From NCBI RefSeq assembly GCF_005503365.1, contig NZ_SCML01000005.1, positions 1 to 64,000 on the forward strand: a stretch of DNA of 64,000 nt, read 5' to 3'. This document shows, one piece after another, positions 2,637-34,128 of this stretch. The stretch is from Hydrogenophaga sp. 2FB. Lineage in GTDB: Bacteria; Pseudomonadota; Gammaproteobacteria; Burkholderiales; Burkholderiaceae_C. Every line of letters starts with the position of its first letter. The first letter of the stretch is position 1. The position numbers and the translations under genes are program-made. Under the pieces are notes generated by a model, which did not search any database, was not told the origin of the DNA, and saw only the letters and a program-made list of their open reading frames with translations.

Positions 2637-3455
2637 TCAGCCGGCCAGGAAGTCGCGGATCGCGAACAGCGTGGCGTCGGGGGTTTCGGTCATCTGGTGG
2701 TGCCCCACCAGCAGCGTGACCGTGCTCACCGCCTTGCCGTTGGCCTGTGCTACCTTGATGAGGGGCTGCGCGGCCTTGGTCTGCGTCATCTGGTCCAGGC
2801 CGCCGAGCAGGAACAGCACCGGGCAGGTGATGGCCGCAATCGCCGCTTCACCACCCGCATAGCTGTCGCAAGCCACGAAGCCGCGGTGGAACACGTTGAC
2901 CTTCGCATTGCTGCGCAACACGCGCCGGCCCAGCGCCAGGCTGCTGCCGAACACCCAGGTGCCCGGCCCGAGCGCCGAGGGTGGCGCGGCCAGCGTGCTG
3001 CGCGAGAACACGTTGATCATCTGCAGGCCTTTTTCGGGGTCGTTGAGCGCGGCCTCGATCAGCGCCGGCGAGACTTTCATGGGGTAGGCCGTGCCCACCA
3101 GCACCAGGTGGCTCACCCGATCCTTGAGGCGTGCCGCCGCTTCGAGCGCGATCAGCGAACCCCAGCTGTGGCCGACCAGCGCGGCCTTCTGCACGCCCAT
3201 GGCATCGAGCAGCGCCGCGACGAAATCGGCCGCGGCTTCCACCGAGGCGGGCGCCTCGCCTTCGCTCTTGCAATGGCCGGGCAGGTCGACCGCGAGCACG
3301 TTCCAGCCGTGGTGGGCGAGGTAGCGGCTTTGCAGAATCCACACGCTGTGGTCGTGGAGCACGCCGTGGACGAAGACCACGGTGGGCTTGGCGGCGTCGA
3401 AGGGTTTGCCGCCGGTGTAGCAGTAGGTGTTGGCGCCGTTGACTTGCAGGTACAT
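2637..3455 (-). CDS. Alpha/beta hydrolase
   Basis: A 272-residue alpha/beta-hydrolase-fold enzyme without a signal peptide. The oxyanion segment FVHG lies near residue 28. The nucleophile elbow GHSWGS puts the catalytic serine at about residue 97, the acid is in GGLDQ near residue 221, and the histidine is in GHHQMTE near residue 250, so the triad looks complete. The start codon lies 2 bases after the metY stop, so the two are almost certainly cotranscribed and probably translationally coupled, with the P450 gene following. Likely an esterase, lactonase or C-C hydrolase; the sequence does not tell which. Confidence 0.88.
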   Translation of the reverse strand: MYLQVNGANTYCYTGGKPFDAAKPTVVFVHGVLHDHSVWILQSRYLAHHGWNVLAVDLPGHCKSEGEAPASVEAAADFVAALLDAMGVQKAALVGHSWGSLIALEAAARLKDRVSHLVLVGTAYPMKVSPALIEAALNDPEKGLQMINVFSRSTLAAPPSALGPGTWVFGSSLALGRRVLRSNAKVNVFHRGFVACDSYAGGEAAIAAITCPVLFLLGGLDQMTQTKAAQPLIKVAQANGKAVSTVTLLVGHHQMTETPDATLFAIRDFLAG

Positions 3456-3457
3456 GG

Positions 3458-4768
3458 TCAGGCCCCCGCCTTTTCTGCGGCCTTCAGAGCGCGCTTGAGA
3501 TCGTCGATCAGGTCGTCCGGGTCTTCCAGCCCGATCGAGAGGCGGATCGTGCCCGGGCCGATGCCGCCGGCGGCCAGCGCCTCGTCGCTCATGCGGAAGT
3601 GCGTGGTGCTCGCGGGGTGGATCACCAGCGAGCGGCAGTCGCCCACGTTGGCCAGGTGGCTGAAGATCTTGAGCGCTTCGATGAAGGCCTTGCCCTGCGC
3701 GCGGCTGCCCTTGATGTCGAAGCTGAACACCGAGCCCGCGCCCTTGGCGCCAAAGCGCAGCAGCTTCTCGGCCAGGGCGTGGCTGGGGTGCGTGTCCAGC
3801 ATCGGGTGGCCGACGCGGCCCACGAGCGGGTGGCTGGCCAGGAACTGCACCACCTTCTCGGTGTTGCCCATGTGGCGGTCCATGCGCAGCGACAGCGTTT
3901 CGATGCCTTGCAGGATCAGCCAGGCGCTGTGCGGGCTCATGCAGGCGCCGAAGTCGCGCAGGCCTTCGCGGCGCGCGCGCAGCAGGAAGGCGCCCACGGT
4001 GCTCTCCTCGCTGAACACCATGTTGTGAAAACCTTCGTAGGCCTCGGTGAGCTCGGGGAATTTGCCGGATTTTTCCCAGTCGAAACTGCCCGCGTCCACC
4101 ACCACCCCGCCGATCACGGTGCCGTGGCCGCTCAGGAACTTGGTGGCCGAGTGGTAGACGATGTCCGCGCCGAGCTCAAACGGCTTGATGAGGTAGGGCG
4201 TGGTCAGCGTGGAGTCGACCAGCAGGGGCGCGCCCGCCTCGTGCGCGATCTGCGAGACGGTGGGGATGTCGAGCACGTCCAGCCCCGGGTTGCCCACGGT
4301 CTCGCCGAAGAACAGCTTGGTGTTGGGCCGCACGGCGGCGCGCCAGCCGTCGATGTCGCCCGGCTTCACGAAGGTGGTTTCGATGCCGAAGCGGCGCATC
4401 GTGTAGTGCAGCAGGTTCTGGCTGCCGCCGTAGAGCGCGGTGCTGGCGACGATGTGCGAGCCCGCGCCCATGAGCGTGGCCACGGCCAGGTGCAGCGCGG
4501 CCTGGCCGCTGGCCGTGGCGATGGCGCCAATGCCGCCTTCGAGCGCGGCCATGCGCTGCTCGAACACCGCGTTGGTCGGGTTGCTGATGCGGCTGTAGAC
4601 GTGGCCCGCGCGCTCCAGGTTGAACAGCGCCGCTGCGTGGTCGCTGGATTCGAAGACGAACGAGGTGGTCAGGTGGATCGGCACCGCGCGCGCGCCGGTG
4701 GTGGGGTCGGGCGCGGCGCCCGCGTGCAGGGCCAGGGTGTCGAAGCCGGGGTCGGAATAGCCGGGCAT
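3458..4768 (-). CDS. metY: O-acetylhomoserine aminocarboxypropyltransferase (sulfhydrylase)
   Basis: A 436-residue PLP enzyme of the Cys/Met-metabolism family that makes homocysteine (or methionine) from O-acetylhomoserine and sulfide (or methanethiol). Visible family features are the N-terminal GFDTLALHAG, the substrate/PLP stretch YSRISNPT, and the Schiff-base lysine in SATKFLSGHG at about residue 210. The open frame continues 258 codons upstream, but the start MPGYSDPGFDT at 4768 is right because it follows a GGAGACA ribosome site and the upstream part is antisense to the CBS gene. It is the first gene of a leftward operon with a hydrolase and a P450, an unusual setting for a methionine gene. 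I saw no clear S-adenosylmethionine riboswitch in the upstream 150 bases. Confidence 0.93.
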   Translation of the reverse strand: MPGYSDPGFDTLALHAGAAPDPTTGARAVPIHLTTSFVFESSDHAAALFNLERAGHVYSRISNPTNAVFEQRMAALEGGIGAIATASGQAALHLAVATLMGAGSHIVASTALYGGSQNLLHYTMRRFGIETTFVKPGDIDGWRAAVRPNTKLFFGETVGNPGLDVLDIPTVSQIAHEAGAPLLVDSTLTTPYLIKPFELGADIVYHSATKFLSGHGTVIGGVVVDAGSFDWEKSGKFPELTEAYEGFHNMVFSEESTVGAFLLRARREGLRDFGACMSPHSAWLILQGIETLSLRMDRHMGNTEKVVQFLASHPLVGRVGHPMLDTHPSHALAEKLLRFGAKGAGSVFSFDIKGSRAQGKAFIEALKIFSHLANVGDCRSLVIHPASTTHFRMSDEALAAGGIGPGTIRLSIGLEDPDDLIDDLKRALKAAEKAGA

Positions 4769-21124: not shown

Positions 21125-22225
21125 ATGAGCGGAAACACCTTCGGAACCCTGTTTTGCGTCACCAACTTTGGTGAATCCCACGGCCCGGCCATTGGCTGCG
21201 TGATCGACGGCTGTCCCCCGGGCATGGAACTGAGCGAGGCCGACATCCAGACGGACCTGGACCGCCGCCGCCCCGGCACCAGCAAATTCGTCACCCAGCG
21301 CAACGAGCCCGACACGGTGGAAATCCTGAGTGGCGTGTACGAAGGCAAGACCACCGGCACCCCCATCGCCCTGCTGATCCGAAACACCAACCAGCGCAGC
21401 AAGGACTACGGCGACATCCTGCAGACCTTCCGCCCCGGCCACGCCGACTACACCTACTGGCAGAAATTCGGCATCCGCGACCCGCGCGGCGGCGGGCGCA
21501 GCTCGGCCCGCCTGACCGCCCCCACCGTGGCCGCTGGCGCGGTGGCCAGGAAATGGCTCAAGGAACGTTATGGCGTCACTTTCCGTGGCCACATGACGCA
21601 GGTGGGCGAACTCGCCATTCCCTTCGAGAGCTGGGAACACGTGCCCAACAACCCGTTCTTCGCGCCCGTGGCCGACGTGTCCGCCATCGAGGCCTACATG
21701 AACGAGCTGCGCAAGAGCGGCGACTCGTGCGGCGCGCGCCTTCGCGTCACCGCCCAGGGCATGCCCGTGGGCCTGGGCCAACCGCTGTACGACCGGCTCG
21801 ACGCCGACATCGCCTACGCCATGATGGGCCTCAACGCGGTCAAGGGCGTGGAGATCGGCGCGGGCTTCGCCAGCGTGGCGCACAAAGGCAGCACGCACGG
21901 CGACAGCCTTTCGCCCGAAGGCTTCAAGGGCAACAACGCCGGCGGCGTGCTCGGCGGCATCAGCACCGGGCAAGACCTGGAAGTGCAGATCGCCATCAAG
22001 CCCACGAGCTCGATCCTGATCCCGCGCGAAACCATCGACAAGGCGGGTCAGTCCACCGAAATCATCACCAAGGGTCGCCACGACCCCTGCGTGGGCATCC
22101 GCGCCACGCCGATCGCCGAGGCGCTGTTGGCCCTGGTGGTGATGGACCACGCGCTGCTGCAGCGCGCGCAGTGCGGCGACGTGCAGTTGCCCACGCCGGA
22201 CATCGCCGCGAAGTCCCGGGCCTGA
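21125..22225 (+). CDS. aroC: Chorismate synthase
   Basis: A 366-residue chorismate synthase, which converts EPSP to chorismate in the last common step of aromatic biosynthesis using reduced FMN. All signature regions are present: [18 protein letters not shown] at the N-terminus, [11 protein letters not shown] near residue 45, [13 protein letters not shown] near 125, [12 protein letters not shown]-like [17 protein letters not shown] near 275, and the C-terminal [21 protein letters not shown]. Length is normal. It is a single gene whose stop converges on the EamA gene 6 bases away; the neighbouring aroE and aroQ genes lie in separate leftward operons. Confidence 0.98.
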
Positions 22226-22231
22226 GTCCGC

Positions 22232-23101
22232 TCAAGCGCTGCGCAGGCGCACACCCAGCCAGCCACACAGCGCAATGAGGGCGATGCCGGCGACGGTCCA
22301 GGCATCGGGCGCGTAGCCGAACACCGCCCAGCCGGCCAGCGTGGCAAAGGCGATCTGCGCGTACAGGTAGGGCGTGAGCCGCGAGGCCGGCGCATGGTGG
22401 TAGGCCTGGATCAGCAGGTAGTGCCCGACCGAGCCGAACACCCCCAGCAGGCCTGCCAGCGCCCACAACGTCCCGTCGGCCATGGGCGCCCAGCCCCAGG
22501 GCAGCAGCAGCGAGCAGCACAACAGCCCGAGCAGTCCGCTGTAGAAGTGGATGGTGCCCGGGTCTTCCGTGCGCACCATGCGGCTGGTGAGGATCTGGTA
22601 CATGGCGTTGACCACCACGAGCAACAGCGGCAGCAGCATGGCGCCATGGAAATCGCTGCCCTTGGGGCGGATCACGATCAGCGCGCCCGCCAGTCCGCCG
22701 ACCACCAGCACCCAGGTGAGGGCGGACACGCGCTCGCGCAACATCAGCGCGGCCAGCAGGGTGACCGCCAGCGGCACCAGCATCATGATGGCGGTGAACT
22801 CGCCCACCGGCACGTGGCGCAGGGCGATGTAGGCGACCACACTGGAGCCCAGCATCAACACCCCGCGCGCCAGATGCCAGCCCGGCGCGCGCGTGCGCAG
22901 CAGCGCGCGCCCGCGTTGGGGCCACAGCAGCGCCGTGGTCATGAGGGTCTGGGTGAGGTAACGCAGCCAGACCGCCATCAACACCGGCACGGCAGGGCCC
23001 ACGTACTGCGAGGTGGTGTCGAGCAGGGCGAAGCACAGCGTCGCGCACACCAGCAGCGCGATCCCCAGCGCGGTGTGTCGGGCGGAAGCGGGGGGCGCCA
23101 C
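22232..23101 (-). CDS. EamA/DMT-family transporter
   Basis: A 289-residue protein with ten hydrophobic segments arranged as two EamA repeats (drug/metabolite transporter superfamily). It starts with GTG at 23101, 7 bases after the aroE-like stop, so it is the last gene of the leftward TRAP-aroQ-aroE operon. Members export amino acids, aromatics or other metabolites; in this context it may expel an overflow intermediate. A second EamA gene (31141-32031) occupies the matching position in the other aroE-aroQ operon. Confidence 0.88.
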   Translation of the reverse strand: MAPPASARHTALGIALLVCATLCFALLDTTSQYVGPAVPVLMAVWLRYLTQTLMTTALLWPQRGRALLRTRAPGWHLARGVLMLGSSVVAYIALRHVPVGEFTAIMMLVPLAVTLLAALMLRERVSALTWVLVVGGLAGALIVIRPKGSDFHGAMLLPLLLVVVNAMYQILTSRMVRTEDPGTIHFYSGLLGLLCCSLLLPWGWAPMADGTLWALAGLLGVFGSVGHYLLIQAYHHAPASRLTPYLYAQIAFATLAGWAVFGYAPDAWTVAGIALIALCGWLGVRLRSA

Positions 23102-23108
23102 GCGGGGC

Positions 23109-23942
23109 TCAGTAGCGCAACCGGGCCACGGAGCGCAACACCTCGGCGGTGGTGGTCGGAAAACCGAAGAACTCCAGGTAGGCGGGTATCTGTTCGAAGA
23201 GCATGTCCGAGCCTACCTGAACGCGGCAGCCCCGTGCTTGCGCGGCCAGCAGGAAGGCGGTCATCTCGGTCCGCATCACCACCTCGCCCACGAAGGTGTT
23301 CGGGTCCAGGCGGGAGACGTCCATCGGCAACGCATCGCCTTCGTTCATGCCCATGGGCGTGGCGTTGACCACCAGGTCGAAGCCGGCCGGGTCGTTGCTG
23401 CCGGTGCTCACCGCGATCTCGGGGTAGCTGGTCTGGATGCGCTGGCCCAGGGCCTCGGCCGAGGCGGTGTTCACGTCGTACAGCCCGATCGCGCCAATGT
23501 CCGCGCCCGCGAGCGACGCGGCAATGGCGCTGCCCACACCACCGCTGCCCACCACCAGCACGCGCGCGCCTTGCAGGTTCAGGCCCTTGCGCTGCACGCC
23601 GCGCACGAAGCCCGCGCCGTCGAACATGTCGCCCACCAGGCGGCCTTCGGCCGTGCGCTTGACGGCGTTGCAGGCGCCGGCCACGCGCACCGTGGGGGTC
23701 ACTTCGTCGAGCAGGCCCACGGTGACGACCTTGTGCGGCATCGTGATGAGCGCGCCGCGGATGTTGGTGAGCCTGAAGACCGACTTGAGGAAGTTCGGGT
23801 AGTCCGACGGCTGGCAGCCCATGGGCACCACCACCGCGTTCACACCCACGTGCTCGAAGTACGGGTTGTAGATCATCGGCGACTTGAAGGTGTGTGTCGG
23901 GTAGCCGATGTGGGCAATGAGTTCGGTGGTGCCGTTGATCAT
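23109..23942 (-). CDS. Shikimate/quinate dehydrogenase-family protein
   Basis: A 277-residue member of the AroE/YdiB family. Present are an N-terminal substrate lobe (HIGYPTHTFKSPMIYN), the catalytic-lysine loop ITMPHK (lysine near 68), GACNAVKR, the conserved aspartate in GDMFDGAGF, the nucleotide loop VVGSGGVGSAIAAS and VVNATPMGM. It differs from classical AroE in the C-terminal substrate loop, where VVMRTEMTAFLL replaces the usual YxPxxTPLL-type stretch. It sits next to a dehydroquinase, an oxidoreductase and a TRAP importer, so a catabolic quinate or shikimate dehydrogenase is more likely than the biosynthetic enzyme. The start has only a weak ribosome site. Confidence 0.87.
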   Translation of the reverse strand: MINGTTELIAHIGYPTHTFKSPMIYNPYFEHVGVNAVVVPMGCQPSDYPNFLKSVFRLTNIRGALITMPHKVVTVGLLDEVTPTVRVAGACNAVKRTAEGRLVGDMFDGAGFVRGVQRKGLNLQGARVLVVGSGGVGSAIAASLAGADIGAIGLYDVNTASAEALGQRIQTSYPEIAVSTGSNDPAGFDLVVNATPMGMNEGDALPMDVSRLDPNTFVGEVVMRTEMTAFLLAAQARGCRVQVGSDMLFEQIPAYLEFFGFPTTTAEVLRSVARLRY

Positions 23943-23958
23943 GGTGTGTGGGCCAGGG

Positions 23959-24405
23959 TCAGGTTTTTCGGGCGCGCGCGTGGTTCACCGCGGTGCGCAG
24001 GGCCAGCAGGTAGCTGTCGACGCCGAAGCCCGCGACCTGGCCCTGCACGATCTCGGCGAACACCGAGACGTGGCGAAACGCCTCGCGCGCATGGATGTTG
24101 GACATGTGCAGCTCAACGATCGGGCAGGTCAGGATGGCCAGCGCATCGCGGATGCCGTAGCTGTAGTGCGTCCACGCGCCGGCGTTGATCAATACCGCGT
24201 CCACGTTGTCGACGTAGGCCTGGTGGATGCGCTCGCACATGGCGCCTTCGAAGTTGGTCTGGAAGTTCTGCACTTCCACGCCCAGCTCTTTGCCCAGCGT
24301 GCTCAACTGCTCGTTGATCTGGTCGAGCGTGATGGTGCCGTACTGCTTCGGGTCGCGCTTGCCGAACATGTTGTGGTTGATGCCATGCAGCATGAGAACT
24401 TTCAT
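23959..24405 (-). CDS. aroQ: Type II 3-dehydroquinate dehydratase (TRAP operon copy)
   Basis: A 148-residue type II dehydroquinase, which interconverts 3-dehydroquinate and 3-dehydroshikimate. Family features: MLHGINHNMFGKRDPKQYG (with the tyrosine that abstracts the proton), INAGAWTHYSYGIRDAL, and [18 protein letters not shown] with the catalytic histidine. The usual [12 protein letters not shown] start is altered here to GINHNMFGKRDP. AGGAG before ATG 24405 sets the start. It precedes the aroE-like gene by 16 bases. The catabolic setting suggests a quinate-degrading QuiB-like role. Confidence 0.9.
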   Translation of the reverse strand: MKVLMLHGINHNMFGKRDPKQYGTITLDQINEQLSTLGKELGVEVQNFQTNFEGAMCERIHQAYVDNVDAVLINAGAWTHYSYGIRDALAILTCPIVELHMSNIHAREAFRHVSVFAEIVQGQVAGFGVDSYLLALRTAVNHARARKT

Positions 24406-24433
24406 CGGGGCTCCTGTGGAAATGAAAAGGGGT

Positions 24434-25480
24434 TCAGGCCAGTTCGACCAGGCGGCCGGTCCTGGCGGCCTCGGCAATGCCTTCGGTGACCCGCAGGTTC
24501 TGCAGGCCGTCGCGGGCGGTCACCAGCGGCGCTGCTTCGCCGCGCACGACGGCGCCAAAGTGTTCGATCTGGTGTTTCAGCGGGTCGTCGCGCACCATGC
24601 CCACGGTGCTCACTTCAAACGGCTTCCACCACGAGCGGTCTTCGGGGCGCGGGTAGGTTTTGAGGCGCATGGTCGGCACCGAAAGGCTGCCGTTGGTGCC
24701 GGCGAGGACGTAGCAGTCTTCGTCGTCGTAACTCGGGTAGGCCTTGTTTTCCTGCGAGGTCTGTTCCCAGCTGCGCGGGCTGGCCGCGGTGTCGCTGAGC
24801 ATGAAGCTGCCGAGCGCGCCACTGGCAAAGCGCAGGTTGATGGCCACGGTGTCTTCCACCGGGAACCCGCGCGTGGCGCTCGATGCGATGGCCTGCACGG
24901 TCACGATCTCGCCGCACAACATGCGCAGGTTGTGCACCTCGTGGATCATGTTCAGCAGGATGGGGCCGCCACCGATCTCGCGGCGCCATGGGCCGTCGTC
25001 GAAGTAGTGGTCGGGTTTGAAGAAGGTCGCGCTGCCCATCACGCTGACCAGCCGGCCCAACTGGCCGGACTCGACCACCTGCCGTGCCTTGGCCATGATG
25101 GGGCTGTGCGCGCGGTGGTGGCCGATGAGGACGCTTGCGCCATCGCGCTCGGCCGCCTGCACCAGCGCCTGGCCTTCGGCCACGGTGGTGGCGATCGGCT
25201 TTTCCACCAGCACCGGCAGACCCGCCGCGATGCACTGCAGCGCTTGCGGCACGTGCAAGGGATTGGGCGTGGCCAGCAAGACGCCATCGGGTCGGTCTTT
25301 GGCCAGCAGCTTGTCGATGCTGGTGTACACCGGCACCCCCGCCTGCGCGGCCACCGTCGCGGCGGCGGGCGAAGGGTCCACGACGGCGGACAGGGCGCAC
25401 GTGGGACTGGCGAGCAGCACACGGATGTGGGCCTGACCGATCAGGCCGGCGCCGGCAACAGCAATGCGGGTCTTGGACAT
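24434..25480 (-). CDS. Gfo/Idh/MocA-family oxidoreductase
   Basis: A 348-residue NAD(P)-dependent oxidoreductase. The Rossmann domain begins RIAVAGAGLIGQAHIRVL (about residues 5-22), the family motif VEKPIA lies near residue 95, and the C-terminal alpha/beta domain contains GGPILLNMIHEVHNLRML with the conserved histidines. The start MSKTRIAV at 25480 is chosen over a longer open frame. It lies between dctP (200 bases upstream) and aroQ (28 bases downstream). In this operon it may oxidise a cyclitol or a cyclohexanecarboxylate such as quinate (inference). Confidence 0.9.
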   Translation of the reverse strand: MSKTRIAVAGAGLIGQAHIRVLLASPTCALSAVVDPSPAAATVAAQAGVPVYTSIDKLLAKDRPDGVLLATPNPLHVPQALQCIAAGLPVLVEKPIATTVAEGQALVQAAERDGASVLIGHHRAHSPIMAKARQVVESGQLGRLVSVMGSATFFKPDHYFDDGPWRREIGGGPILLNMIHEVHNLRMLCGEIVTVQAIASSATRGFPVEDTVAINLRFASGALGSFMLSDTAASPRSWEQTSQENKAYPSYDDEDCYVLAGTNGSLSVPTMRLKTYPRPEDRSWWKPFEVSTVGMVRDDPLKHQIEHFGAVVRGEAAPLVTARDGLQNLRVTEGIAEAARTGRLVELA

Positions 25481-25629
25481 GGCGAGGCGAAATGCAACGG
25501 GTGAATGAGAGCCTTGCGAGAGAGAGCGTCCGCACAAGTGCGCGGCCCTGCGAACGCGTGCCAAATCTCCGGCGCGACGTGTCGGCTCCAGGGCACCTGA
25601 GGATCCGGCTCGGCCGGTCCCAGGGTGCG

Positions 25630-25664
25630 CCCCCTTGAGGGGGTGACGGCCCGAGCATCGGGCC
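25630..25664. repeat. Two adjacent hairpins downstream of dctP
   Basis: CCCCCTTGAGGGGG (25630-25643) and GGCCCGA-GCA-TCGGGCC (25648-25664) form two neighbouring stems in the 200-base gap between dctP and the Gfo/Idh gene. The GGGGTGACGGCCC part recurs at about 30421-30433 after another leftward gene. They could be a REP-like element, an mRNA stabiliser at the dctP 3' end, or a partial terminator that lowers expression of downstream genes. Confidence 0.5.
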
Positions 25665-25679
25665 GGCGCAGGGGTGGGT

Positions 25680-26678
25680 TTACTTCCTTACTTTGGCCAG
25701 TTCGGCCTGCAGGCTCTGCACCGTGTCCTGCCCCACCGCCACGGCGTACTTGGCGATCACCGGGCGCAGCTTGTCGCGCAGTTTGTCGGTCTCGGCGGCC
25801 GAGAGTTCGGTCACCTGCATGCCGCCCTTCTTCATGTTGTCCAGCGCCGAGGCGACCTGACCACGCGCCTGTTCGCGCTGGTACTTGGCCGATTCCTGCG
25901 CCGCACCGGCAATGATCTTTTTCTGCGCCGCGTCCAGCGTGTCCCAGAACTTCTTGCTGATGATCACCGACTGCGGGTTGTACTGGTGGTTGCTCAGCAC
26001 CACGTGCTTCTGCACCTCATAGAACTTGTTGGCGTTGATCACGGTGACCGGGTTTTCCTGGCCGTCGATCGCCTTCTGCTCCAGTGCGGCGTACACCTCG
26101 GGGAAGGGCAGGGGCGTGGGGTTGGCGCCCAGGGCCTTGACCCAGTCCACGTTGATCGGGTTGGGGATCACGCGCAGCTTCAGGCCATCGAGGTCCTCCG
26201 CCTTGTTGATGGGGCGCTTGCTGTTGGTGATGGTGCGAAAGCCCAGCTCGTAGTAGGCCAGGCCGATCAGGCCTTTCTCTTGCAGCTTGTCGTGCAGCTT
26301 CTTGCCGAAGGGTCCATCGACAACCGCGTCGGCTTCCTTCGAGTTCGCGAACATGAAGGGGAAGTCGTAGATCGCGAATTCCTTGACCTGGCTGGCGAAG
26401 ATGCCCGAGTTCATCGACGCCATCTCCAGCGTGCCACCCTGGATGGCCGACACGTTGGCCTGGTCGCTGCCCAGCGTGCCGCCGGGGAACAGGTTGACCT
26501 TGATCTTGCCGCCGGACTTGGCCGCGACGATCTCGGCGAATTTCTCCATGCCCATCACGATCGGGTGGCCCTTGGGGTTCTGGGTCGCGAACTTGATGGT
26601 CTTGTCCTGCGCGTGGACGGCGCCAAAGGCGGTCACCGCGATGGCGGCAACGAGGGTTTTGAGCATCAGACGTTTCAT
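25680..26678 (-). CDS. dctP: TRAP transporter solute-binding protein (DctP family)
   Basis: A 332-residue periplasmic TRAP receptor. The signal peptide (MKRLMLKTLVAAIAVTAFGAVHA) is cleaved before QDKTIKFATQN. The body shows the DctP pattern, including ELGFRTITNSKRPINKAEDL with the conserved arginine that binds carboxylates, and LKLRVIPNP. The start at 26678 has a ribosome site GGAGACACC. It follows dctM by 92 bases in the operon dctQ-dctM-dctP-Gfo/Idh-aroQ-aroE-eamA. The adjacent dehydroquinase and shikimate/quinate dehydrogenase suggest quinate, shikimate or dehydroshikimate as ligand (inference). Confidence 0.93.
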   Translation of the reverse strand: MKRLMLKTLVAAIAVTAFGAVHAQDKTIKFATQNPKGHPIVMGMEKFAEIVAAKSGGKIKVNLFPGGTLGSDQANVSAIQGGTLEMASMNSGIFASQVKEFAIYDFPFMFANSKEADAVVDGPFGKKLHDKLQEKGLIGLAYYELGFRTITNSKRPINKAEDLDGLKLRVIPNPINVDWVKALGANPTPLPFPEVYAALEQKAIDGQENPVTVINANKFYEVQKHVVLSNHQYNPQSVIISKKFWDTLDAAQKKIIAGAAQESAKYQREQARGQVASALDNMKKGGMQVTELSAAETDKLRDKLRPVIAKYAVAVGQDTVQSLQAELAKVRK

Positions 26679-26770
26679 GGTGTCTCCAAAGAAGTGATAG
26701 GCAGTGCGCTGGAATCTGAGAACCTCGGCCCGCGGCGCACCACGCACAGGCCGGGTATGGAAAAAGGAAC

Positions 26771-28054
26771 TCAGTTGCCGATCAGCCAGCGCGCCGGCAC
26801 CATGACCAGCGAGGGGAACAGCACCAGCAGGAACATCACCGCCATCTGCACCAGCATGAAGGGCAGCACGCCGCGCGTGACGTCGTCCATGCGCATGCGG
26901 CCCACGCCGGCCACGGTGTTGAGCACGGTGCCCACGGGCGGCGTCACCAGGCCGATCGAGTTGTTGATGATGAACAGCACGCCGAAGTACACCGGGTCGA
27001 TGCCGGCGGCTTTCACCAGCGGCATCAGCACGGGGGTGAGGATCAGGATGGTGGGCGTCATGTCCATCGCCGTGCCCACCGCGATCACCAGCAGCATGAT
27101 GGCCATCATCAGCAGCGTCGGGTTGTCCAGCAGCGGCTGCAGCAGGGCGACGATCTGGTCGGGCAACTGCGCCACCGTGATCAGCCAGGCCGAGACCATC
27201 GCCGCGGCCACCAGGAACATGATCACCGCGGTGGTCTTGGCCGCGTTCAGGAACACCTCGTAGAGCTGCTTCACCGTCAGCTCTCGGTAGATCACGCCGG
27301 CCACGAACAGCGCGTAGACGGCGGCCACCACGGCCGCTTCGGTCGGCGTGAACACGCCCATGCGCAGGCCCACCAGGATGATCAGCGGCAGCATCAGCGC
27401 CCAGCCCGCGCTGCGCATGGCGGCCATCACCTCGCCCGCCGACTTGCGCGGCGGCGGCTCCAGGGCCTCGCGCCGCGTGGTCCACCACCAGGTGGCCCAC
27501 AGGCCCGCCGCCAGCAGGATGCCGGGGAAGATGCCCGCGAGGAACAGCTTGGAAATCGACACGTTGCCCGCGACACCGAAGATCACGAAGCCGATCGAGG
27601 GCGGGATGATCGGGCCGATCACGCCGCACGCCGCGATCAGGCCGCCGCTGCGCGCCTTGTCGTGGCCGGCCTTCACCATCATCGGCAGCAGCAAGGCGGT
27701 GAGCGCGGCCGCGTCGGCCACGGCCGAGCCCGAGAGCGCCGACAGCAGACAGGCCGCGACGATGGTCACGTAGCCCAGGCCGCCGCGCACATGGCCCACC
27801 AGCGCCATCGCGAAGTTCACGATGCGGCGCGACAGGCCGCCGGTGTTCATGATTTCGCCGGCCAGCATGAAGAAGGGCACGGCCAGCAGTGGGAAACTGT
27901 TGGAGCCTTCAATGAGGTTCTGCGCGAGGATCTGCGCATCGAACATGCCCATGTGCAGCATCAGGGCCACACCGCTGAGCAGCAACGCGAAGGAAATGGG
28001 CACGCCGATGGCCATGGCGGCCAGCAAAGCACCGAGGAAGATAGCGATCGTCAT
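26771..28054 (-). CDS. dctM: TRAP transporter large permease (DctM)
   Basis: A 427-residue membrane protein of the DctM/ion transporter superfamily with about 12 hydrophobic segments. Family features: FLGALLAAMAIGVPISFALL at the start, AGEIMNTGGLSRRIVNFA near residue 65, the GSAVADAAALTALLLPMMVKAG loop near 105, and IIPPSIGFVIFG. It starts 18 bases after dctQ. It forms the sodium-coupled translocation channel with DctQ. Confidence 0.95.
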   Translation of the reverse strand: MTIAIFLGALLAAMAIGVPISFALLLSGVALMLHMGMFDAQILAQNLIEGSNSFPLLAVPFFMLAGEIMNTGGLSRRIVNFAMALVGHVRGGLGYVTIVAACLLSALSGSAVADAAALTALLLPMMVKAGHDKARSGGLIAACGVIGPIIPPSIGFVIFGVAGNVSISKLFLAGIFPGILLAAGLWATWWWTTRREALEPPPRKSAGEVMAAMRSAGWALMLPLIILVGLRMGVFTPTEAAVVAAVYALFVAGVIYRELTVKQLYEVFLNAAKTTAVIMFLVAAAMVSAWLITVAQLPDQIVALLQPLLDNPTLLMMAIMLLVIAVGTAMDMTPTILILTPVLMPLVKAAGIDPVYFGVLFIINNSIGLVTPPVGTVLNTVAGVGRMRMDDVTRGVLPFMLVQMAVMFLLVLFPSLVMVPARWLIGN

Positions 28055-28072
28055 GTCAGTCTTCCTGTGCGT

Positions 28073-28609
28073 TCAGGCTTGGGGCTTGCCGGGAGGCGGC
28101 ACGTCTTCGGATTCGCGGATGCCGATGAGCTCGTCCTCGCTCATCTGGCCCGCGAGCAGGCGCCACAGGGTGAGCAGCAGCACGGGCGCGGCCAGCAGCG
28201 CGAACAGCATGCCGCTGGCGTAGAAATAGGCCATCGAGGTCTCCATCACCGCGCTGGTGGATTCCCAGTTGATCTTCACCTGCTCCCATGCGCCCTGGTA
28301 GATCAGCCAGCACACGTACAGCATCAGCCCCAGGCTCGCGGCCAGGCACAGCTTGCGGCCGAGCACCGGCAGGCGCGAGATCAGCGAATCGGTGCCGAGG
28401 TGGGCGCGTTCGTTGAGCGCCACCACGGCGCCCAGAAAGGTCATCCACACGAACAGCCAGCGCGACAACTCTTCGGAGAGGGTGATGCCCGAGTTGAAGC
28501 CGTAGCGCATCACCACGTTGCCAAACACCATCACCACCATGCAGGCGAGAAACAGCACCATCAGCCAGGCGAGCAGCCGGCAGTAGGCGTTGATGAGTTT
28601 CTGGATCAC
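28073..28609 (-). CDS. dctQ: TRAP transporter small permease (DctQ)
   Basis: A 178-residue protein with four hydrophobic segments and the DctQ pattern (VVMRYGFNSGITLSEELSRW, FLGAVVALNERAHLGTD). The start codon is GTG at 28609, with AGGAGACA about 5 bases upstream. It is the first gene of the leftward operon and is divergent from the chemoreceptor gene across about 250 bases that hold a palindromic A/T-rich region. Confidence 0.92.
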   Translation of the reverse strand: MIQKLINAYCRLLAWLMVLFLACMVVMVFGNVVMRYGFNSGITLSEELSRWLFVWMTFLGAVVALNERAHLGTDSLISRLPVLGRKLCLAASLGLMLYVCWLIYQGAWEQVKINWESTSAVMETSMAYFYASGMLFALLAAPVLLLTLWRLLAGQMSEDELIGIRESEDVPPPGKPQA

Positions 28610-28650
28610 GCGTGTCTCCTGGGTTGTTTCGTTCGGTTTTGTTAATGTAC

Positions 28651-28684
28651 GAACTGGTTAGTTTTACGCGAATTGGTAATTACC
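28651..28684. promoter_or_regulatory. Candidate operator region for the TRAP operon
   Basis: The 34 bases hold two related blocks, GAACTGGTTAGTT (28651-28663) and GAATTGGTAATTA (28670-28682), 19 bases apart. The second overlaps a perfect palindrome, GGTAATTACC (28675-28684). This is the only A/T-rich stretch between dctQ and the divergent chemoreceptor. A TetR-type regulator is encoded 1.8 kb away; the link between them is inference. Confidence 0.45.
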
Positions 28685-28858
28685 CTAGGTGAAAACGCCG
28701 GCCATCGGATCGCTCCGTGTGTATGCCCCGCACTCAAGATCGGCGCGAATCAACCGATGTCCACACCAAGCCTGTGCAGGCCGCCCGTCCCGTGACGCGC
28801 CCGATGTCCTGTGCCCGCCCCTTTGTGCCCATCCCATTCCAGAAAGCTTGTTCCCCGC

Positions 28859-30406
28859 ATGAAACTCAATGACATCAAGGTCGGCAGCCGCCTGGCCGTC
28901 GCCTTCGGACTGGTGTTGCTCATCACCGCGCTGATGGCCGGCATCGGCGTCTGGCGGCTGCAGGAGCTGGTCGACACCACGCGCAAACTGGCCACGACCG
29001 AGAACGAAAAACTCCAGCTGGCCGCGCGCTGGCGCCAGACCATCGACATCAACTGGGTGCGCACCCGCGCGGCCATCCTCGATTCCGACACCAGCCGCAT
29101 TCCAACCTGGCAGGCCGCCATGGACGAGACCTCCAAGATCTCGCAGGCGTCGCGCGATCGCATGCTGGAGCTGGTGCATTCGGACACCGGCAAGAAGATG
29201 CTGGCCGACATCGACGCCGCGCGCGAGGCCTACCGCACACCCCGCGGCGCCGTGATGAAGGCGCGCATCGCCGGCGAGGACGTGAGCGTGGCGCTCGACC
29301 GCGACCTCAAGCCCTTGGCCGAGGCCTACATCAACACCATTCTCAAACTGGAGGAGCGGCAGCAGGGCCTGTACGACGCCACGCTGAAAGAGGCGGAAGA
29401 GAACGCGGTCCAGGGCCGTACCATCCTGGTCGCGGGCGGTGTGCTCGCCCTCCTGCTCGGCGCCGCTGCCGCCTTCGTGCTCAGCCGCTCGATCACCGTG
29501 CCCTTGCGCAAGGCCGCTCAGAACGCGCGCCTGATCGCCGACGGCGACCTCACCCAACCGATCGACACCGATGGCCGCGATGAAGCCGCCCAGCTGTTGC
29601 AGGCCCTCAGCGGCATGCGCGACAGCCTCGTGCGTGTGGTGGCCAACGTGCGCGGCAACGCCGAGAGCGTGGCCACGGCCAGCGCCGAAATCTCCCAGGG
29701 CAACAACGACCTGTCGGCACGCACCGAGCAACAGGCCAGCGCGCTGGAAGAAACCGCCGCGTCCATGGAACAGCTGAGCTCCACCGTGCGCCAGAACGCC
29801 GACAACGCGCAGCAGGCCAACCAGCTGGCCAAGAGCGCGTCCACCGTGGCCACGCAGGGCGGCGACGTCGTCGCGCAGGTGGTGGACACCATGAAGGGCA
29901 TCAACGACAGCTCGAAGAAGATCGCCGACATCATCAGCGTGATCGACGGCATCGCCTTCCAGACCAACATCCTCGCGCTCAACGCGGCGGTGGAAGCCGC
30001 GCGCGCCGGCGAGCAAGGCCGTGGCTTCGCGGTAGTGGCGGGCGAGGTGCGCAACCTGGCCCAGCGCAGCGCGCAAGCCGCCAAGGAGATCAAGGAACTG
30101 ATCACCGCCAGCGTGGACCGCGTGGCGCAAGGCACCGCGCTGGTCGACCAGGCCGGCGTGACCATGGCCGAGGTGGTGGGCTCGATCCAGCGCGTGACCG
30201 ACATCATGGGCGAGATCAGCGCGGCCAGCATCGAACAGAGTTCGGGCGTGGCCCAGGTGGGCGAAGCGGTGACGCAGATGGACCAGGCCACGCAGCAGAA
30301 CGCCGCGCTGGTGGAGGAGAGCGCCGCGGCGGCCTCCAGCCTGAAGACGCAGGCGGCTCAGATGGTGGATGCGGTGGCGGTGTTCAAACTCGCCCACCAC
30401 GCCTGA
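28859..30406 (+). CDS. Methyl-accepting chemotaxis protein
   Basis: A 515-residue chemoreceptor. A first membrane segment ([18 protein letters not shown]) is followed by a periplasmic four-helix-bundle sensor domain of about 150 residues. A second membrane segment ([20 protein letters not shown], near residue 190), a HAMP linker ([21 protein letters not shown]) and the signalling domain follow, with the hairpin tip [20 protein letters not shown]. There is no C-terminal NWETF-type pentapeptide. The start at 28859 skips 16 codons without a ribosome site. Its position opposite a TRAP/quinate-like operon suggests the cell may swim towards the same compound; that is inference. Confidence 0.93.
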
Positions 30407-30433
30407 GTTGGCGCGGCTTGGGGGTGACGGCCC

Positions 30434-31114
30434 TCAGGCGCGCACGTAGCGCACCACCATCTCGGTGATGGCGGCGCGGCGCGCGGCCATCGCCTTCGCA
30501 TCGGCCATGTCGAGCTTGAAGATCAGGCCGAAGGTGTGGCGGTTGGACACGTTGAAGAACGTCAATGCCGAGATGGACGCATGGATGTCGATGGCGTTGA
30601 GCCCCGGGCGGAACACGCCGGACGCCACGCCACGCTCGTACAGCTTGCGGATCGACGAAATCGCCGGCACGTTGAGCTGCTGGATGCTCTGGCTCTGCGC
30701 CAGGTACTGGCCCCGGTTCATGTTTTCCGACATCACCACCCGGATGTAGTTCTCGTGGGTGGCGTGGTGGTCGAAGGTGAACTCGACCAGCTTGCGCAGC
30801 GCCGCCTCGGGTTCGAGGTCTTCCAGGTGCTGCTGGCTCTCGATCTCCCGCATCTGCCGGTACGACTCTTCGAGCACCGCGAGGTACAAGCCCTCCTTGC
30901 TGCCGAAGTAGTAATAGATCATGCGCTTGCTGGTCTGCGTGGCGGCCGCGATCTCGTCGATGCGCGCGCCCGCCAGACCCTTCTCCGCGAACTCGGTCAT
31001 GGCCACTTCCATGATGTTGGCCATGGTCCGCTCCGGGTCGTTGGTGCGGGTGGTTTCCTTCGCGGGCGCGGCGCTTCTGGCGCTCCGTCGTCTGGAATGT
31101 ACCGTTTCGTTCAT
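30434..31114 (-). CDS. TetR/AcrR-family regulator
   Basis: A 226-residue TetR-type repressor. A basic, disordered N-terminus of about 30 residues precedes the helix-turn-helix (MEVAMTEFAEKGLAGARIDE, then TSKRMIYYYFGSKEGLYLAV, near residues 36-80), followed by an all-helical ligand domain. The start at 31114 (MNETVHSRRR) is chosen over the long upstream frame, which is antisense-type noise in the EamA gene. It is the last gene of aroE-aroQ-eamA-tetR, 26 bases after eamA. It probably senses an aromatic or alicyclic acid and controls these operons (inference). Confidence 0.9.
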   Translation of the reverse strand: MNETVHSRRRSARSAAPAKETTRTNDPERTMANIMEVAMTEFAEKGLAGARIDEIAAATQTSKRMIYYYFGSKEGLYLAVLEESYRQMREIESQQHLEDLEPEAALRKLVEFTFDHHATHENYIRVVMSENMNRGQYLAQSQSIQQLNVPAISSIRKLYERGVASGVFRPGLNAIDIHASISALTFFNVSNRHTFGLIFKLDMADAKAMAARRAAITEMVVRYVRA

Positions 31115-31140
31115 TTCCGCAGTATAGGCCGGGAAACCCC

Positions 31141-32031
31141 TCAAGGTGTTGGTGTGGCGGGCCACCAGCGCCGCAGTGGGTTGAACCCCGTCACCAGGGC
31201 AGAGGCCACCAGCACCAGCGCGCCGCCCACGAAGATGCCGGGCGACAGCGCTTCGCCCAGGAAGAGGTGGCCCCAGGTCACGCCGAACACCGGAATCAGG
31301 AAGATCGGGCTCAGCGCCGCGACCGGCGTGACGTGGCGCACGATGCGAAGGTGCAACCAGTACGCGATGCCCGACGTGACCACGCCCATGACCAGCACCG
31401 AGCCCAGCGCCGCCGGCGTGAACCGGGCTTCGGGCAGGCCCCAGAGGGTGCTCGGCAAGAGCAACACCATGGCCACCAGGTGGATGCCCGCCGCAATCGC
31501 CAGCGGCTGCATGCGCGTGGTGGCGCGCTTCATGAGCGGCGTGGCGAAGCCAAAGCTGGCTGCGCCCAGCACGCAGGCCAGCGCCGCGGCCAGCGTGGTG
31601 GCATCGGGCTGCACCGGCCCCAGCCGCACGATCAGGCCCACGCCCACGAGCCCCAGCACGCAGCCCAACAGCTTGCGCCGGGTGAGCGTGTCTTCCTTCA
31701 TCCACGCCGACGAGAGCGTGCCGAACAGCACCGCCGTGGTGTTGAGCAGCGCGCTGTAGCCCGAAGGCAAGTACAGCCCGGCCCAGGCGAACACCATGAA
31801 CGGCACGGCCACCGACAACGCGCCGAGCACCAACAGTTCGCGCCAGTGTTGCCACGGCCAGCGTTCGCGCAGGGCTCGCATGATCAGCACCAGCGTGATG
31901 CTGGCCAGCGCCGCGCGGCAGCCCGCGAGCACCCACGGCCCCATCGCCGGACTGGCGATGCGAATGAACAGAAACGATGCCCCCCACAGGGCCGAAAGGC
32001 CCACGATCTGTGCGAACTGGCGGGCCTGCAC
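31141..32031 (-). CDS. EamA/DMT-family transporter
   Basis: A 296-residue protein with ten hydrophobic segments in two EamA repeats. The start codon is GTG at 32031, 6 bases after the aroQ stop, and tetR follows 26 bases after its end. It is the counterpart of the EamA gene at 22232-23101, which also sits beside an aroE/aroQ pair. A metabolite exporter of unknown substrate is the best reading. Confidence 0.88.
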   Translation of the reverse strand: MQARQFAQIVGLSALWGASFLFIRIASPAMGPWVLAGCRAALASITLVLIMRALRERWPWQHWRELLVLGALSVAVPFMVFAWAGLYLPSGYSALLNTTAVLFGTLSSAWMKEDTLTRRKLLGCVLGLVGVGLIVRLGPVQPDATTLAAALACVLGAASFGFATPLMKRATTRMQPLAIAAGIHLVAMVLLLPSTLWGLPEARFTPAALGSVLVMGVVTSGIAYWLHLRIVRHVTPVAALSPIFLIPVFGVTWGHLFLGEALSPGIFVGGALVLVASALVTGFNPLRRWWPATPTP

Positions 32032-32037
32032 CGGGCG

Positions 32038-32508
32038 TCAGCCCGCTGCTGCTGCTGCTGCGACCTTGCGCACCAGGCCTTCGATGGCCAGCGTGTAGCC
32101 ATCGGTGCCGAACCCGACCACGATGCCCGCCGCCGCTGGCGACACATAGGAGTGGTGGCGGAAGGCCTCGCGCGCGTGCACGTTGGAGATGTGGATCTCG
32201 ATCACCGGCAAGGGCTTCACGCCGCTGATCGCGTCAAAGATTGCCACCGAGGTGTGCGTGAACGCGCCGGGGTTGAACACCACACCCGCCACCTCGCCCG
32301 TCTTGAAGCGCTTGCCCGCATCGTGGATCTTGTCGATCAGCGCGCCTTCGTGGTTGCTCTGAAACGCCTCCAGCTCGTACCCCAGGCGCTGCGCGGTCGC
32401 GCGGCATTGCGCTTCCACATCGGCCAGTGTGGTCGCGCCGTACACGCCGGGTTCGCGTGTGCCCAGCAGGTTGAGGTTGGGGCCGTTGAGCAGCAAGAGG
32501 GTCGCCAT
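32038..32508 (-). CDS. aroQ: Type II 3-dehydroquinate dehydratase (second copy)
   Basis: A 156-residue type II dehydroquinase with the canonical signature [20 protein letters not shown], then [17 protein letters not shown] and [19 protein letters not shown] with the catalytic histidine. It differs from the TRAP-operon copy mainly in its classical N-terminal loop, so this one may be the biosynthetic or the better-conserved copy. A run of alanines ends the protein. The start at 32508 lies 44 bases after aroE. Confidence 0.95.
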
Positions 32509-32552
32509 GGGTGTCTCGTGTGTTTCGTGTGTAGGGGTGTTTGGAATGCAGC

Positions 32553-33377
32553 TTAAACCAGCGGCACGGTGAGCTGTGCCAGCACGGCGGCGGTGTCGGG
32601 CCGCACGCCGCGCCACCACAGAAACGCCTCGGCGGCTTGCTCCACCAGCATGCCCACGCCGTCGGCCACGCGCGCCACGCCAGCGGCCTGCGCCTGCTTC
32701 AGGAAAGGCGTGAGGCCTTTGCCATAGACCATCTCGTAAGCCAGTGCGCCGGGCGCGAACAGGCCATCGGGCAAGGGCAGCGCGTCTTGCGACAGGCCGG
32801 TGGACGTGGCGTTGATGACCACGTCGAACGACTGGCCCAGCAGCGTGTCGTAACCACCGGTTTGCAATGGCACGTGCGCCGCGAAGTCGTGCCGCAACTG
32901 GTGCGCCTTGTCGGGCGTGCGGTTGGCCACGGAGAGCAGGGCGGGACGCTCTGCCGCGATCGGCAGCAGCGCGCCGCGCGTGGCGCCACCTGCGCCCAGC
33001 AGCAGCACACGCTTGCCGGCCAGGGGAAAGCCCAGGTTGCGCTGGATGTCGTTGACCAGGCCCACGCCGTCGAAGTTGTCGGCCAGGATGCGGTCGCCGT
33101 CGACGAACTTCAGGCAGTTGGCCGCGCCGGCCAGGCGCGCGCGCTCGGTGGGCTCGGTGGCGATCTCGAAAGCCTGCAGCTTGAACGGCAGGCTCACGTT
33201 CACGCCGCGCCCGCCGCTGGCTCGAAAGGCCAGCACGGTGTCGGCAAAACCATCGAGCGGTGCTTCGATGGCGGTGTAGTGAATGTCTTGCCCCGTGGCC
33301 TGGGCAAACTGGGTGTGGATCAGCGGCGATTTGCTGTGGCCAATGGGGTGGCCAAGAACGGCGTAGCGGTCGGTCAT
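32553..33377 (-). CDS. aroE: Shikimate dehydrogenase (classical AroE)
   Basis: A 274-residue shikimate dehydrogenase. It carries the substrate loop [16 protein letters not shown], the catalytic-lysine loop NVSLPFK (lysine near 65), ADNFDGVGL with the catalytic aspartate near 101, the NADP loop [13 protein letters not shown] followed by [10 protein letters not shown], and [13 protein letters not shown]. All classical motifs are present, unlike the paralogue at 23109-23942. It is the first gene of aroE-aroQ-eamA-tetR and is divergent from the DsbA-family gene, with 85 bases between starts. Confidence 0.95.
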
Positions 33378-33462
33378 GGGATGGGCTGCGTTGGGAAGCT
33401 GCCATTGTGGCGCAAGCCCCTGGAGGGCCTGCGGACATGAGGCCCGGCCTACCATCGACGCC

Positions 33463-34128
33463 ATGAACACCACCAACACCCCTCTCAAGATCGATTTCGT
33501 GTCCGACGTCTCCTGCCCCTGGTGTGCCGTGGGCCTGGGCGCGCTGGAAGAAGCGCTGCAGAAACTGCAAGGCGAGAACGTGCAGGCCGAACTGCACTTC
33601 CAGCCCTTTGAACTCAACCCCAAGATGGGCGCGCAAGGCCAGGACATCGGCGAGCACCTGGCCGAGAAATACGGCTCCACGCCCGAGCAGCAGGCGCAGA
33701 TCCGCAACACCATCCGCGCGCGCGGCGCCGAAGTCGGCTTTGCCTTCAACCCCGAAGGGCGCGGCCGCATCTGGAACACCTTTGATGCGCACCGGCTGCT
33801 GCACTGGGCGGGCGAGGAGGGCGCACCCGGTCAACAGCACGCGCTGAAGAAAGCGCTCATGGCCGCCTGCCACACCCGCAGTGAGGCCATGGGCCACCAC
33901 GACGTGCTGCTGGGCTGCGTGCGCGAGGTCGGGCTGGACGAAGCGCGGGCCAAAGCCATTCTGGCCAGCGACGAGTTCGCGCAGGACGTGCGCGAGCGCG
34001 AAGCCTTCTACCAGAGCCACGGCATCCACTCGGTGCCAGCGGTGATCATCAACGACCAGCATTTGATTTCGGGTGGGCAGCCGGCAGCGGTGTTCGAACA
34101 GGCGCTGCGGCAGATTGCGGGGGCGTGA
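33463..34128 (+). CDS. DsbA-family (FrnE-like) oxidoreductase
   Basis: A 221-residue cytoplasmic DsbA-fold protein of the FrnE/DSBA-like type, with the redox motif SCPWC near residues 16-20 and the cis-proline loop SVPAVIIND near residue 185. No signal peptide is present. The start at 33463 skips an upstream extension of 29 codons that overlaps the aroE promoter. Members act as thiol oxidoreductases or isomerases; the substrate is unknown. Confidence 0.92.

Follow-up and report, generated by a model that had tools for sequence, protein, structure and literature searches.

A TRAP operon with a divergent AroE-AroQ pair, most likely for quinate or shikimate catabolism, beside a biosynthetic set in Hydrogenophaga sp. 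2FB

The stretch of DNA analysed here, 64,000 nucleotides of Hydrogenophaga sp. 2FB (contig NZ_SCML01000005.1, positions 1 to 64,000; referred to as the window), carries two sets of minus-strand genes that each include a gene of the shikimate dehydrogenase (SDH) family, a type II 3-dehydroquinate dehydratase (DHQase) gene and an eamA gene. Analyses of these genes and of their relatives indicated that the two sets differ in kind, one being biosynthetic and the other most likely devoted to quinate/shikimate catabolism. Set 1 (22232-28609) is probably a catabolic operon, putatively under TetR control, whose tripartite ATP-independent periplasmic (TRAP) transporter would import a hydroaromatic acid, quinate and/or shikimate being the likeliest. 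We read it as catabolic because genes of the AroE1 clade often adjoin dehydroshikimate dehydratase, DHQase, protocatechuate or shikimate-carrier-like genes.

In the proposed pathway DctQMP would bring in the acid, most likely quinate and/or shikimate, and AroE1, perhaps together with a Gfo/Idh/MocA oxidoreductase, would oxidise it with NAD to 3-dehydroquinate or 3-dehydroshikimate. AroQ1 would convert dehydroquinate to dehydroshikimate, from which a dehydroshikimate dehydratase, encoded on contig 35 in this genome and beside the operon in most relatives examined, would form protocatechuate, and PmdAB (contig 42) would then open the latter. TetR would control the operon via a palindromic site (28646-28662) before dctQ, and AroE2 and AroQ2 of set 2 would run ordinary biosynthesis.

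Two aroE-aroQ sets of different kind

Searches of the 6.31 Mb genome, an assembly of 126 contigs with 99.99% completeness and 2.28% contamination, found three type II DHQases, two in the window and one on contig 67, and no type I DHQase. The SDH substrate-binding domain occurs in two proteins genome-wide, both encoded within the window. The genes that an earlier sequence-only reading of this DNA had named in the two leftward sets were all recovered on the minus strand at the positions it gave, and the altered loops it had quoted are present, GINHNMFGKRDP in AroQ1 and VVMRTEMTAFLL in AroE1.

Set 1 is ordered dctQ (28073-28609; PF04290, 3.8e-26), dctM (26771-28054; PF06808, 1.6e-122; TIGR00786 over cut-off), dctP (25680-26678; PF03480, 2.2e-91; TIGR00787 over cut-off; nearest solved structure 4p47), the Gfo/Idh/MocA oxidoreductase gene (24434-25480; PF01408, 6.5e-28), aroQ1 (23959-24405; PF01220, 1.7e-52; TIGR01088 over cut-off), aroE1 (23109-23942; PF08501, 1.6e-14) and eamA (22232-23101; PF00892, 4.2e-26). 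The domain and family profile matches thus give a complete TRAP uptake system, made up of small permease, large permease and solute-binding protein, encoded together with the enzymes.

Set 2 (30434-33377) is ordered aroE2 (32553-33377), aroQ2 (32038-32508; NF003806 over cut-off; AroQ match 1.1e-58), a second eamA (31141-32031; PF00892, 1.8e-31) and tetR (30434-31114; PF00440 and PF17938). By sequence AroE2-AroQ2 is an ordinary biosynthetic pair, since AroE2 (NF001310, 342.7 bits against a cut-off of 221) was the sole canonical SDH recovered genome-wide, and on the same ground set 2 was rejected as a catabolic set. AroE2 keeps S14, S16, N59, K65, N86, D102, R150, Y215 and Q244 (E. coli numbering). 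AroQ2 keeps the type II active-site residues in the alignment and falls in a clade of 8 rows (support 100/95), the other seven of which come from the same genus or from one named Hydrogenophaga. A protein of the AroQ2 type is the only type II AroQ in three genomes (G205, G207 and G208), where its gene lies within about 1 kb of an SDH gene.

The sequence-only reading had proposed trees of the paralogues as a check. In the AroE tree (84 rows, built by a quick method, with flags for long branches outside the AroE1 clade) one clade of 36 sequences (SH-aLRT 99), made up of AroE1 and its orthologs, stood apart from the biosynthetic AroE proteins, and AroE2 grouped with E. coli AroE. The suggestion of a catabolic set beside a classical one is consistent with these positions and holds as a reading of gene context. 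The possibility that both sets are biosynthetic paralogs kept after a chance duplication appears highly improbable; both AroQ proteins look like sound DHQases, as such a duplication would have it, but AroE1 and AroE2 are only 31% identical and belong to different clades, and set 1 has a complete importer and a conserved operator.

For the SDH residues S14, S16, N59, R150 and Y215, as well as K65, D102 and N86, we assume the roles generally attributed to them in E. coli numbering. The catalytic Lys65/Asp102 pair and Asn86 of the SDH superfamily are kept in AroE1, and the equivalents of K65, N86, D102 and T61 are invariant in 36/36 sequences of the clade in the tree set. All 36 carry Asp in place of N149, which we take to mark a preference for NAD. 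The structure nearest to the AroE1 profile is 4k28 (206.5 bits), named 'Shikimate dehydrogenase family protein' and presumably from P. putida KT2440 with NAD; like AroE1 it lacks the equivalents of S14, N59, R150 and Y215, but it is distant and lies outside the AroE1 clade.

A second SDH-family protein adjoins AroE1 on a plasmid of Comamonadaceae OTU4NAUVB1 (L043:8973-9935) and lies near the AroE1 clade in the tree. This paralog is without both carboxylate serines and without the T61 equivalent, and relatives of it occur at L082, L085 and L086.

Conserved gene neighbourhood of AroE1 orthologs

A survey of 200 genomes of the family identified AroE1 orthologs (57% identity or more across most of the protein) in 57 and a fragment in one more; flanks of up to 20 kb were fetched around 40 loci from 39 of the 57. 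To these were added the best 80 of at least 539 confirmed named loci and five annotated regions from the 175 plasmid records with a match. Removal of identical AroE1 sequences left 128 loci, 89 of them with long flanks, and 59 of the 89 carry homologous dctM and dctP (TRAP loci). Among the best 80 named loci, orthologs were found in Limnohabitans, Hydrogenophaga, Ramlibacter, Polaromonas, Rhodoferax and others, and the named matches nearest to AroE1 include Hydrogenophaga.

A TetR ortholog is present in 57/59 TRAP loci and stands directly before dctQ on the same strand in 52, the window being among the other seven. A dehydroshikimate dehydratase gene, split or fused, is present in 46/59 (separate gene in 45, fused form in 2), and a 4-hydroxyphenylpyruvate dioxygenase (HPPD)-like gene in 45/59. 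AroQ is encoded within 4.5 kb of AroE1 in 39 of the TRAP loci, 33 times of the AroQ1 type and six times of the AroQ2 type; an AroE2-type gene lies within 9.9 kb in 19 and a Gfo/Idh gene is found in nine. The 30 loci without a homologous TRAP pair include 12 with a dehydratase gene and 15 with AroQ.

The same association was seen on plasmids. In Rhizobium leguminosarum CB782 (L042) AroE1 is accompanied by a QuiC fusion, an ABC transporter, a DHQase, a Gfo/Idh oxidoreductase and pcaBGHCD, and in Comamonadaceae OTU4NAUVB1 (L043) by pca genes, QuiC, two SDH paralogs and an MHS carrier for which the shikimate transporter ranks second among the NCBIfam matches, below cut-off. Homologs of this carrier directly adjoin AroE1 orthologs in L075 and L079, and occur with QuiC and the second SDH paralog in L082 as in L043.

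Completion of the pathway in the window genome

By sequence, the contig 35 dehydratase and the PmdAB proteins of contig 42 could supply the remaining steps of the set 1 pathway in the window genome. The dehydratase and its HPPD-like neighbour on contig 35 are 90% and 91% identical to the operon-adjacent pair of a genome of the same genus (G114), and the pair matches positions 6-270 and 290-466 of the NCBIfam QuiC model; the dehydratase scores 162.2 against a cut-off of 1200 that is set for fused QuiC. According to our reading of the alignment, 9/10 active-site residues given for QuiC1/QsuB in the accessible part of PMC7442255 are matched, S206 being replaced by A. Homologs of the alpha and beta subunits of protocatechuate 4,5-dioxygenase (PmdA, PmdB) are encoded on contig 42, and TIGR02792 was matched over cut-off on contigs 42 and 37. 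The pair on contig 37 (L247:1342-2673) likewise resembles the alpha and beta subunits of protocatechuate 4,5-dioxygenase but scores lower.

Set 1 might instead scavenge quinate or shikimate for aromatic amino-acid biosynthesis via AroE2 and AroC, and not for carbon. It stands between aroE2 and the chorismate synthase gene aroC (21125-22225, plus strand; PF01264, 1.4e-127), which abuts set 1 and is convergent with it, and has no dehydratase of its own in the window; its type of AroQ is the only DHQase found in several relatives, and a quinate to chorismate route has been proposed for a rumen bacterium in the part of PMC10054779 that was accessible. We nevertheless consider scavenging quite improbable, as the dehydratase genes of the 46 TRAP loci would divert dehydroshikimate to protocatechuate, pca genes flank some of the orthologs and the window genome has both the dehydratase and PmdAB.

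TetR and a putative operator before dctQ

The sequence-only reading had assigned tetR to set 2. This is the wrong set: tetR very probably goes with set 1, because its ortholog directly precedes dctQ in the 52 TRAP loci mentioned above, and a linked site with putative TetR binding lies at 28646-28662. An efflux or resistance role for the set carrying tetR was rejected, as the TetR orthologs track the TRAP operon. In the window the two sets are split by a plus-strand chemoreceptor gene (28859-30406), which stands between tetR and the site.

The putative operator ACTAACCAGTTCGTACA (28646-28662, minus strand) is a conserved imperfect palindrome upstream of dctQ, with half-sites ACTAAC and GTTCGT. 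The site ACTAACYAGTTCGTACA was found upstream of dctQ orthologs with 0, 1, 2 or 3 mismatches in 42, 13, 5 and 7 of 76 regions, and was absent from nine; some genomes are present twice in these regions and in the following tally. Among 123 loci, 62 have both site and TetR, two the site alone, 21 TetR alone and 38 neither, and in 58 of the 62 with both, no more than 250 bp separate the site from tetR; one listed distance, 1791 bp, fits the window. The window site is exact and is the only match with at most two mismatches in the 6.31 Mb genome (control 0), and a reversed-sequence control gave one match in 2.2 Mb. Over its first 14 bases the site is an imperfect palindrome; 58 of 69 sites match at 5-7 of 7 positions, against about 1% expected for random bases, a comparison qualified by the kinship of the sites and by their selection for similarity.

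In Hydrogenophaga flava (L167) and at L188, tetR and the site (1 mismatch) precede a different TRAP set, and there the site is tied to tetR and not to dctQ. Malikia spinosa (L181) and the loci L182 and L051 have an additional site immediately before aroQ, and L065 has a variant before AroQ1. A palindromic site linked to the regulator gene is found upstream of dctQ, and TetR is predicted to bind there and may repress the operon.

The 67 aligned sites also show a second conserved block, GGgt....cc, which starts some 22 bases ahead of the operator (window about 28675-28684, minus strand). A scan of 22100-33600 for sigma-70 promoters found none, 0.7 being expected by chance, and a terminator scan gave eight against 6.1 expected.

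AroQ1 and the other dehydroquinases

Type II DHQases are taken here to have the active-site residues Asn, Arg, Tyr, Asn, His, Glu/His and Arg. Alignment revealed that the altered loop of AroQ1 retains Asn, Arg and Tyr and that the remaining catalytic positions are also kept, so a loss of function from the altered loop is not supported and AroQ1 looks like a sound DHQase by sequence. The nearest solved structure, 6cv6 (246 bits), shares the same loop; it is a 3-dehydroquinate dehydratase known here as a structure only. In the AroQ tree, which has few columns, long branches and unsure inner forks, AroQ1 belongs to a clade of 60 (support 99/98) that holds 57 copies encoded within 4.5 kb of AroE1, two encoded elsewhere and that of the window itself. 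The sequence-only reading had taken the divergence of AroQ1 as the mark of a catabolic enzyme, a view that could not be maintained for a purely catabolic one, as the catalytic positions are kept and the clade includes the sole DHQase of several genomes.

Twenty chosen genomes with AroE1 comprise 12 with a single type II DHQase beside AroE1, four with a single one elsewhere and four with several; in the 12, this sole enzyme is encoded on the same strand behind homologous dctQMP. A wider tally gave 21 genomes whose one type II DHQase gene lies about 2 kb or less from AroE1, the nine added genomes including some with another TRAP set, a divergent TRAP set or none found. A search for type I DHQase covered 18 of the 21 (G040, G186 and G194 being left out) and found none in 17, each at least 97% complete, while one genome (G097) has such an enzyme. 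Because no type I enzyme is seen in 17/18 of these relatives, the single DHQase encoded near AroE1 in the 17 should serve biosynthesis as well.

Genome G114 is among the 17, and its only DHQase is 88% identical to AroQ1 of the window. The interval between its aroE2 and eamA yielded no aroQ2, and barring an enzyme of unknown kind the AroQ1-like protein should carry biosynthesis there. At the expected place of aroQ2 (L047, about 3160-4370) a frame of 401 codons on the opposite strand, with the motif FGDSLSDTGN, was read by eye and presumably encodes a GDSL-esterase-like protein.

The third DHQase of the window genome, AroQ3 on contig 67, has a changed active site (H to F and R to Y relative to AroQ1 and AroQ2), and its gene is flanked by an IclR regulator gene, divergently oriented, and by a further TRAP set (DctP, recognised by eye, DctQ and DctM; L161:4069-4476 onward). 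It was rejected as a biosynthetic enzyme on account of these neighbours and residues. AroQ relatives with F or Q at the place of the active-site His were also noted at L042, L221, L220 and L239, those of L220 and L239 being encoded about 1 kb past the start of a dctP-like gene; proteins of this kind possibly have a new function.

Gfo/Idh oxidoreductase and chemoreceptor

The Gfo/Idh oxidoreductase of set 1 is 47% identical to the oxidoreductase of the R. leguminosarum CB782 cluster, and its best NCBIfam match, below cut-off, is inositol 2-dehydrogenase. Of 63 loci with AroQ, 15 have its gene 4.5 kb or less from AroE1, in 13 directly beside AroQ, whereas none of 46 loci without AroQ does. Fisher's test gave p 0.00014 with kinship ignored, and a kin-aware paired test, with only four or five supported pairs, cannot decide; kinship may explain the link, which was dropped as a statistical result and kept as a lead only. 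As a lead, the pattern fits a dehydrogenase that makes dehydroquinate, and the protein is speculatively annotated as a quinate dehydrogenase. No Gfo/Idh ortholog was found in the G114 operon.

The chemoreceptor gene encodes a methyl-accepting chemotaxis protein (PF00015, PF12729 and PF00672; MCPsignal, 4HB_MCP_1 and HAMP domains) and is the only chemoreceptor gene within 9 kb of AroE1 among the 89 loci. Its 4HB sensor domain gave only weak matches to solved sensor domains. Since PcaY_PP of P. putida binds quinate and shikimate tightly according to the accessible part of PMC5449446, the window chemoreceptor may, speculatively, sense the substrate of the operon.

Observations bearing on the identity of the substrate

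Several observations weigh against quinate or shikimate catabolism as the role of set 1. AroE1 matched 29 NCBIfam models and fell short of the cut-off in all 25 that were listed, among them the QsuD-type NAD quinate/shikimate dehydrogenase NF010631 (93.5 bits, cut-off 515) and the YdiB quinate/shikimate dehydrogenase NF009390 (89.4 bits, cut-off 349). Within the AroE1 clade S14 is replaced by F in 35/36 sequences, N59 by L in 36/36 and Y215 by M in 35/36, and S16 by A in 18/36; at S14, S16, N59, R150 and Y215 the AroE1 of the window has F, S, L, V and M, whereas AroE2 keeps all five, and the loop of AroE1 quoted above includes the Y215 position. Because the carboxylate-end residues S14, N59 and Y215 are replaced, quinate or shikimate may not be the substrate of AroE1. 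The gene context has exceptions as well. An adjacent dehydratase is missing from 13/59 TRAP loci, the window included, in whose genome the dehydratase is unlinked to set 1, and the operator was not found in 19.5 kb around the contig 35 dehydratase (at most 3 mismatches). No AroQ is adjacent in 20/59 TRAP loci, ten of the 30 loci without a homologous TRAP pair have neither dehydratase nor AroQ, and on plasmids of Methylobacterium, Ponticoccus and Terrarubrum AroE1 is found in looser settings, an argument against one uniform function. The DHQase of the R. leguminosarum CB782 cluster has F for the active-site His.

Set 1 could instead degrade some other hydroaromatic compound or cyclic polyol, for instance an ester, an epimer or a non-carboxylate analogue, whose breakdown meets the quinate pathway no earlier than dehydroquinate or dehydroshikimate, with AroE1 and the Gfo/Idh enzyme adapted to it. 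The remodelled carboxylate end of AroE1 agrees with such a compound, as do the F for His in the R. leguminosarum DHQase, the presence of the SDH-family 5-ketofructose reductase 7cok among the AroE1 matches, and the extra Gfo/Idh enzyme with its inositol dehydrogenase match. We regard this alternative as unlikely, as the shikimate-transporter-like MHS carrier homolog adjoins some AroE1 orthologs (L075, L079, L082 and L043) and AroQ and dehydroshikimate dehydratase recur across the loci. Quinate and/or shikimate are retained as the probable substrates, with flux presumably running towards protocatechuate.

Comparison with known systems

The qsu operon of Corynebacterium glutamicum comprises the QsuB dehydratase, the QsuC DHQase and the QsuD quinate/shikimate dehydrogenase; in the accessible parts of the sources, its regulator QsuR responds to chorismate (PMC11971909, PMC11258901) and qsuC expression supports flux towards shikimate (PMC11971909). 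The set 1 system resembles qsuABCD in its DHQase step and in the dehydrogenase and dehydratase steps proposed for it, and as far as those parts go QsuC is a partial precedent for the shared use of a DHQase. It differs in that QsuR is described there as LysR-type and the regulator here is TetR, and no Gfo/Idh is among the four qsu genes named in the same parts. AroE1 does not pass the QsuD-type model, and QsuA is, we assume, a transporter of another kind than TRAP. The two-domain dehydratases QuiC1/QsuB (PMC7442255, accessible part) correspond, half by half, to the contig 35 dehydratase and the HPPD-like protein, but the window genome and 45/59 TRAP loci encode the two parts in separate genes.

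Among the open-access titles and abstract openings listed, none was found to describe a TRAP quinate or shikimate operon, which is weak evidence of novelty given that the subscription literature lay mostly outside the search; in the accessible part of PMC10054779 quinate and TRAP occur in different organisms. The kind of system is known, and what appears new, on that weak evidence, is the combination of TRAP import, TetR with its site, the AroE1 clade, a split QuiC, Gfo/Idh and a shared DHQase, which was not met among the open-access matches listed.

Implications

A bolder joint reading, which we hold to be doubtful, would have a range of Comamonadaceae share one DHQase between biosynthesis and the breakdown of a plant acid inside a TetR-controlled TRAP operon that is never fully silent, the Gfo/Idh enzyme, present in some of the genomes including that of the window, being a new inositol-dehydrogenase-like quinate dehydrogenase that feeds this DHQase and the AroE1 clade a new SDH subgroup that binds its substrate by means other than the customary carboxylate anchors. 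For 17 genomes the sole DHQase detected is encoded close to AroE1, and 12 of these have it on the same strand behind homologous dctQMP, which raises the question of how a DHQase needed for biosynthesis is kept on while its operon is off. The operon also yields a testable pair of regulator and operator. Quinate and shikimate are abundant in plants, and if the proposed function is true, the operon would give many Burkholderiales a route to them.

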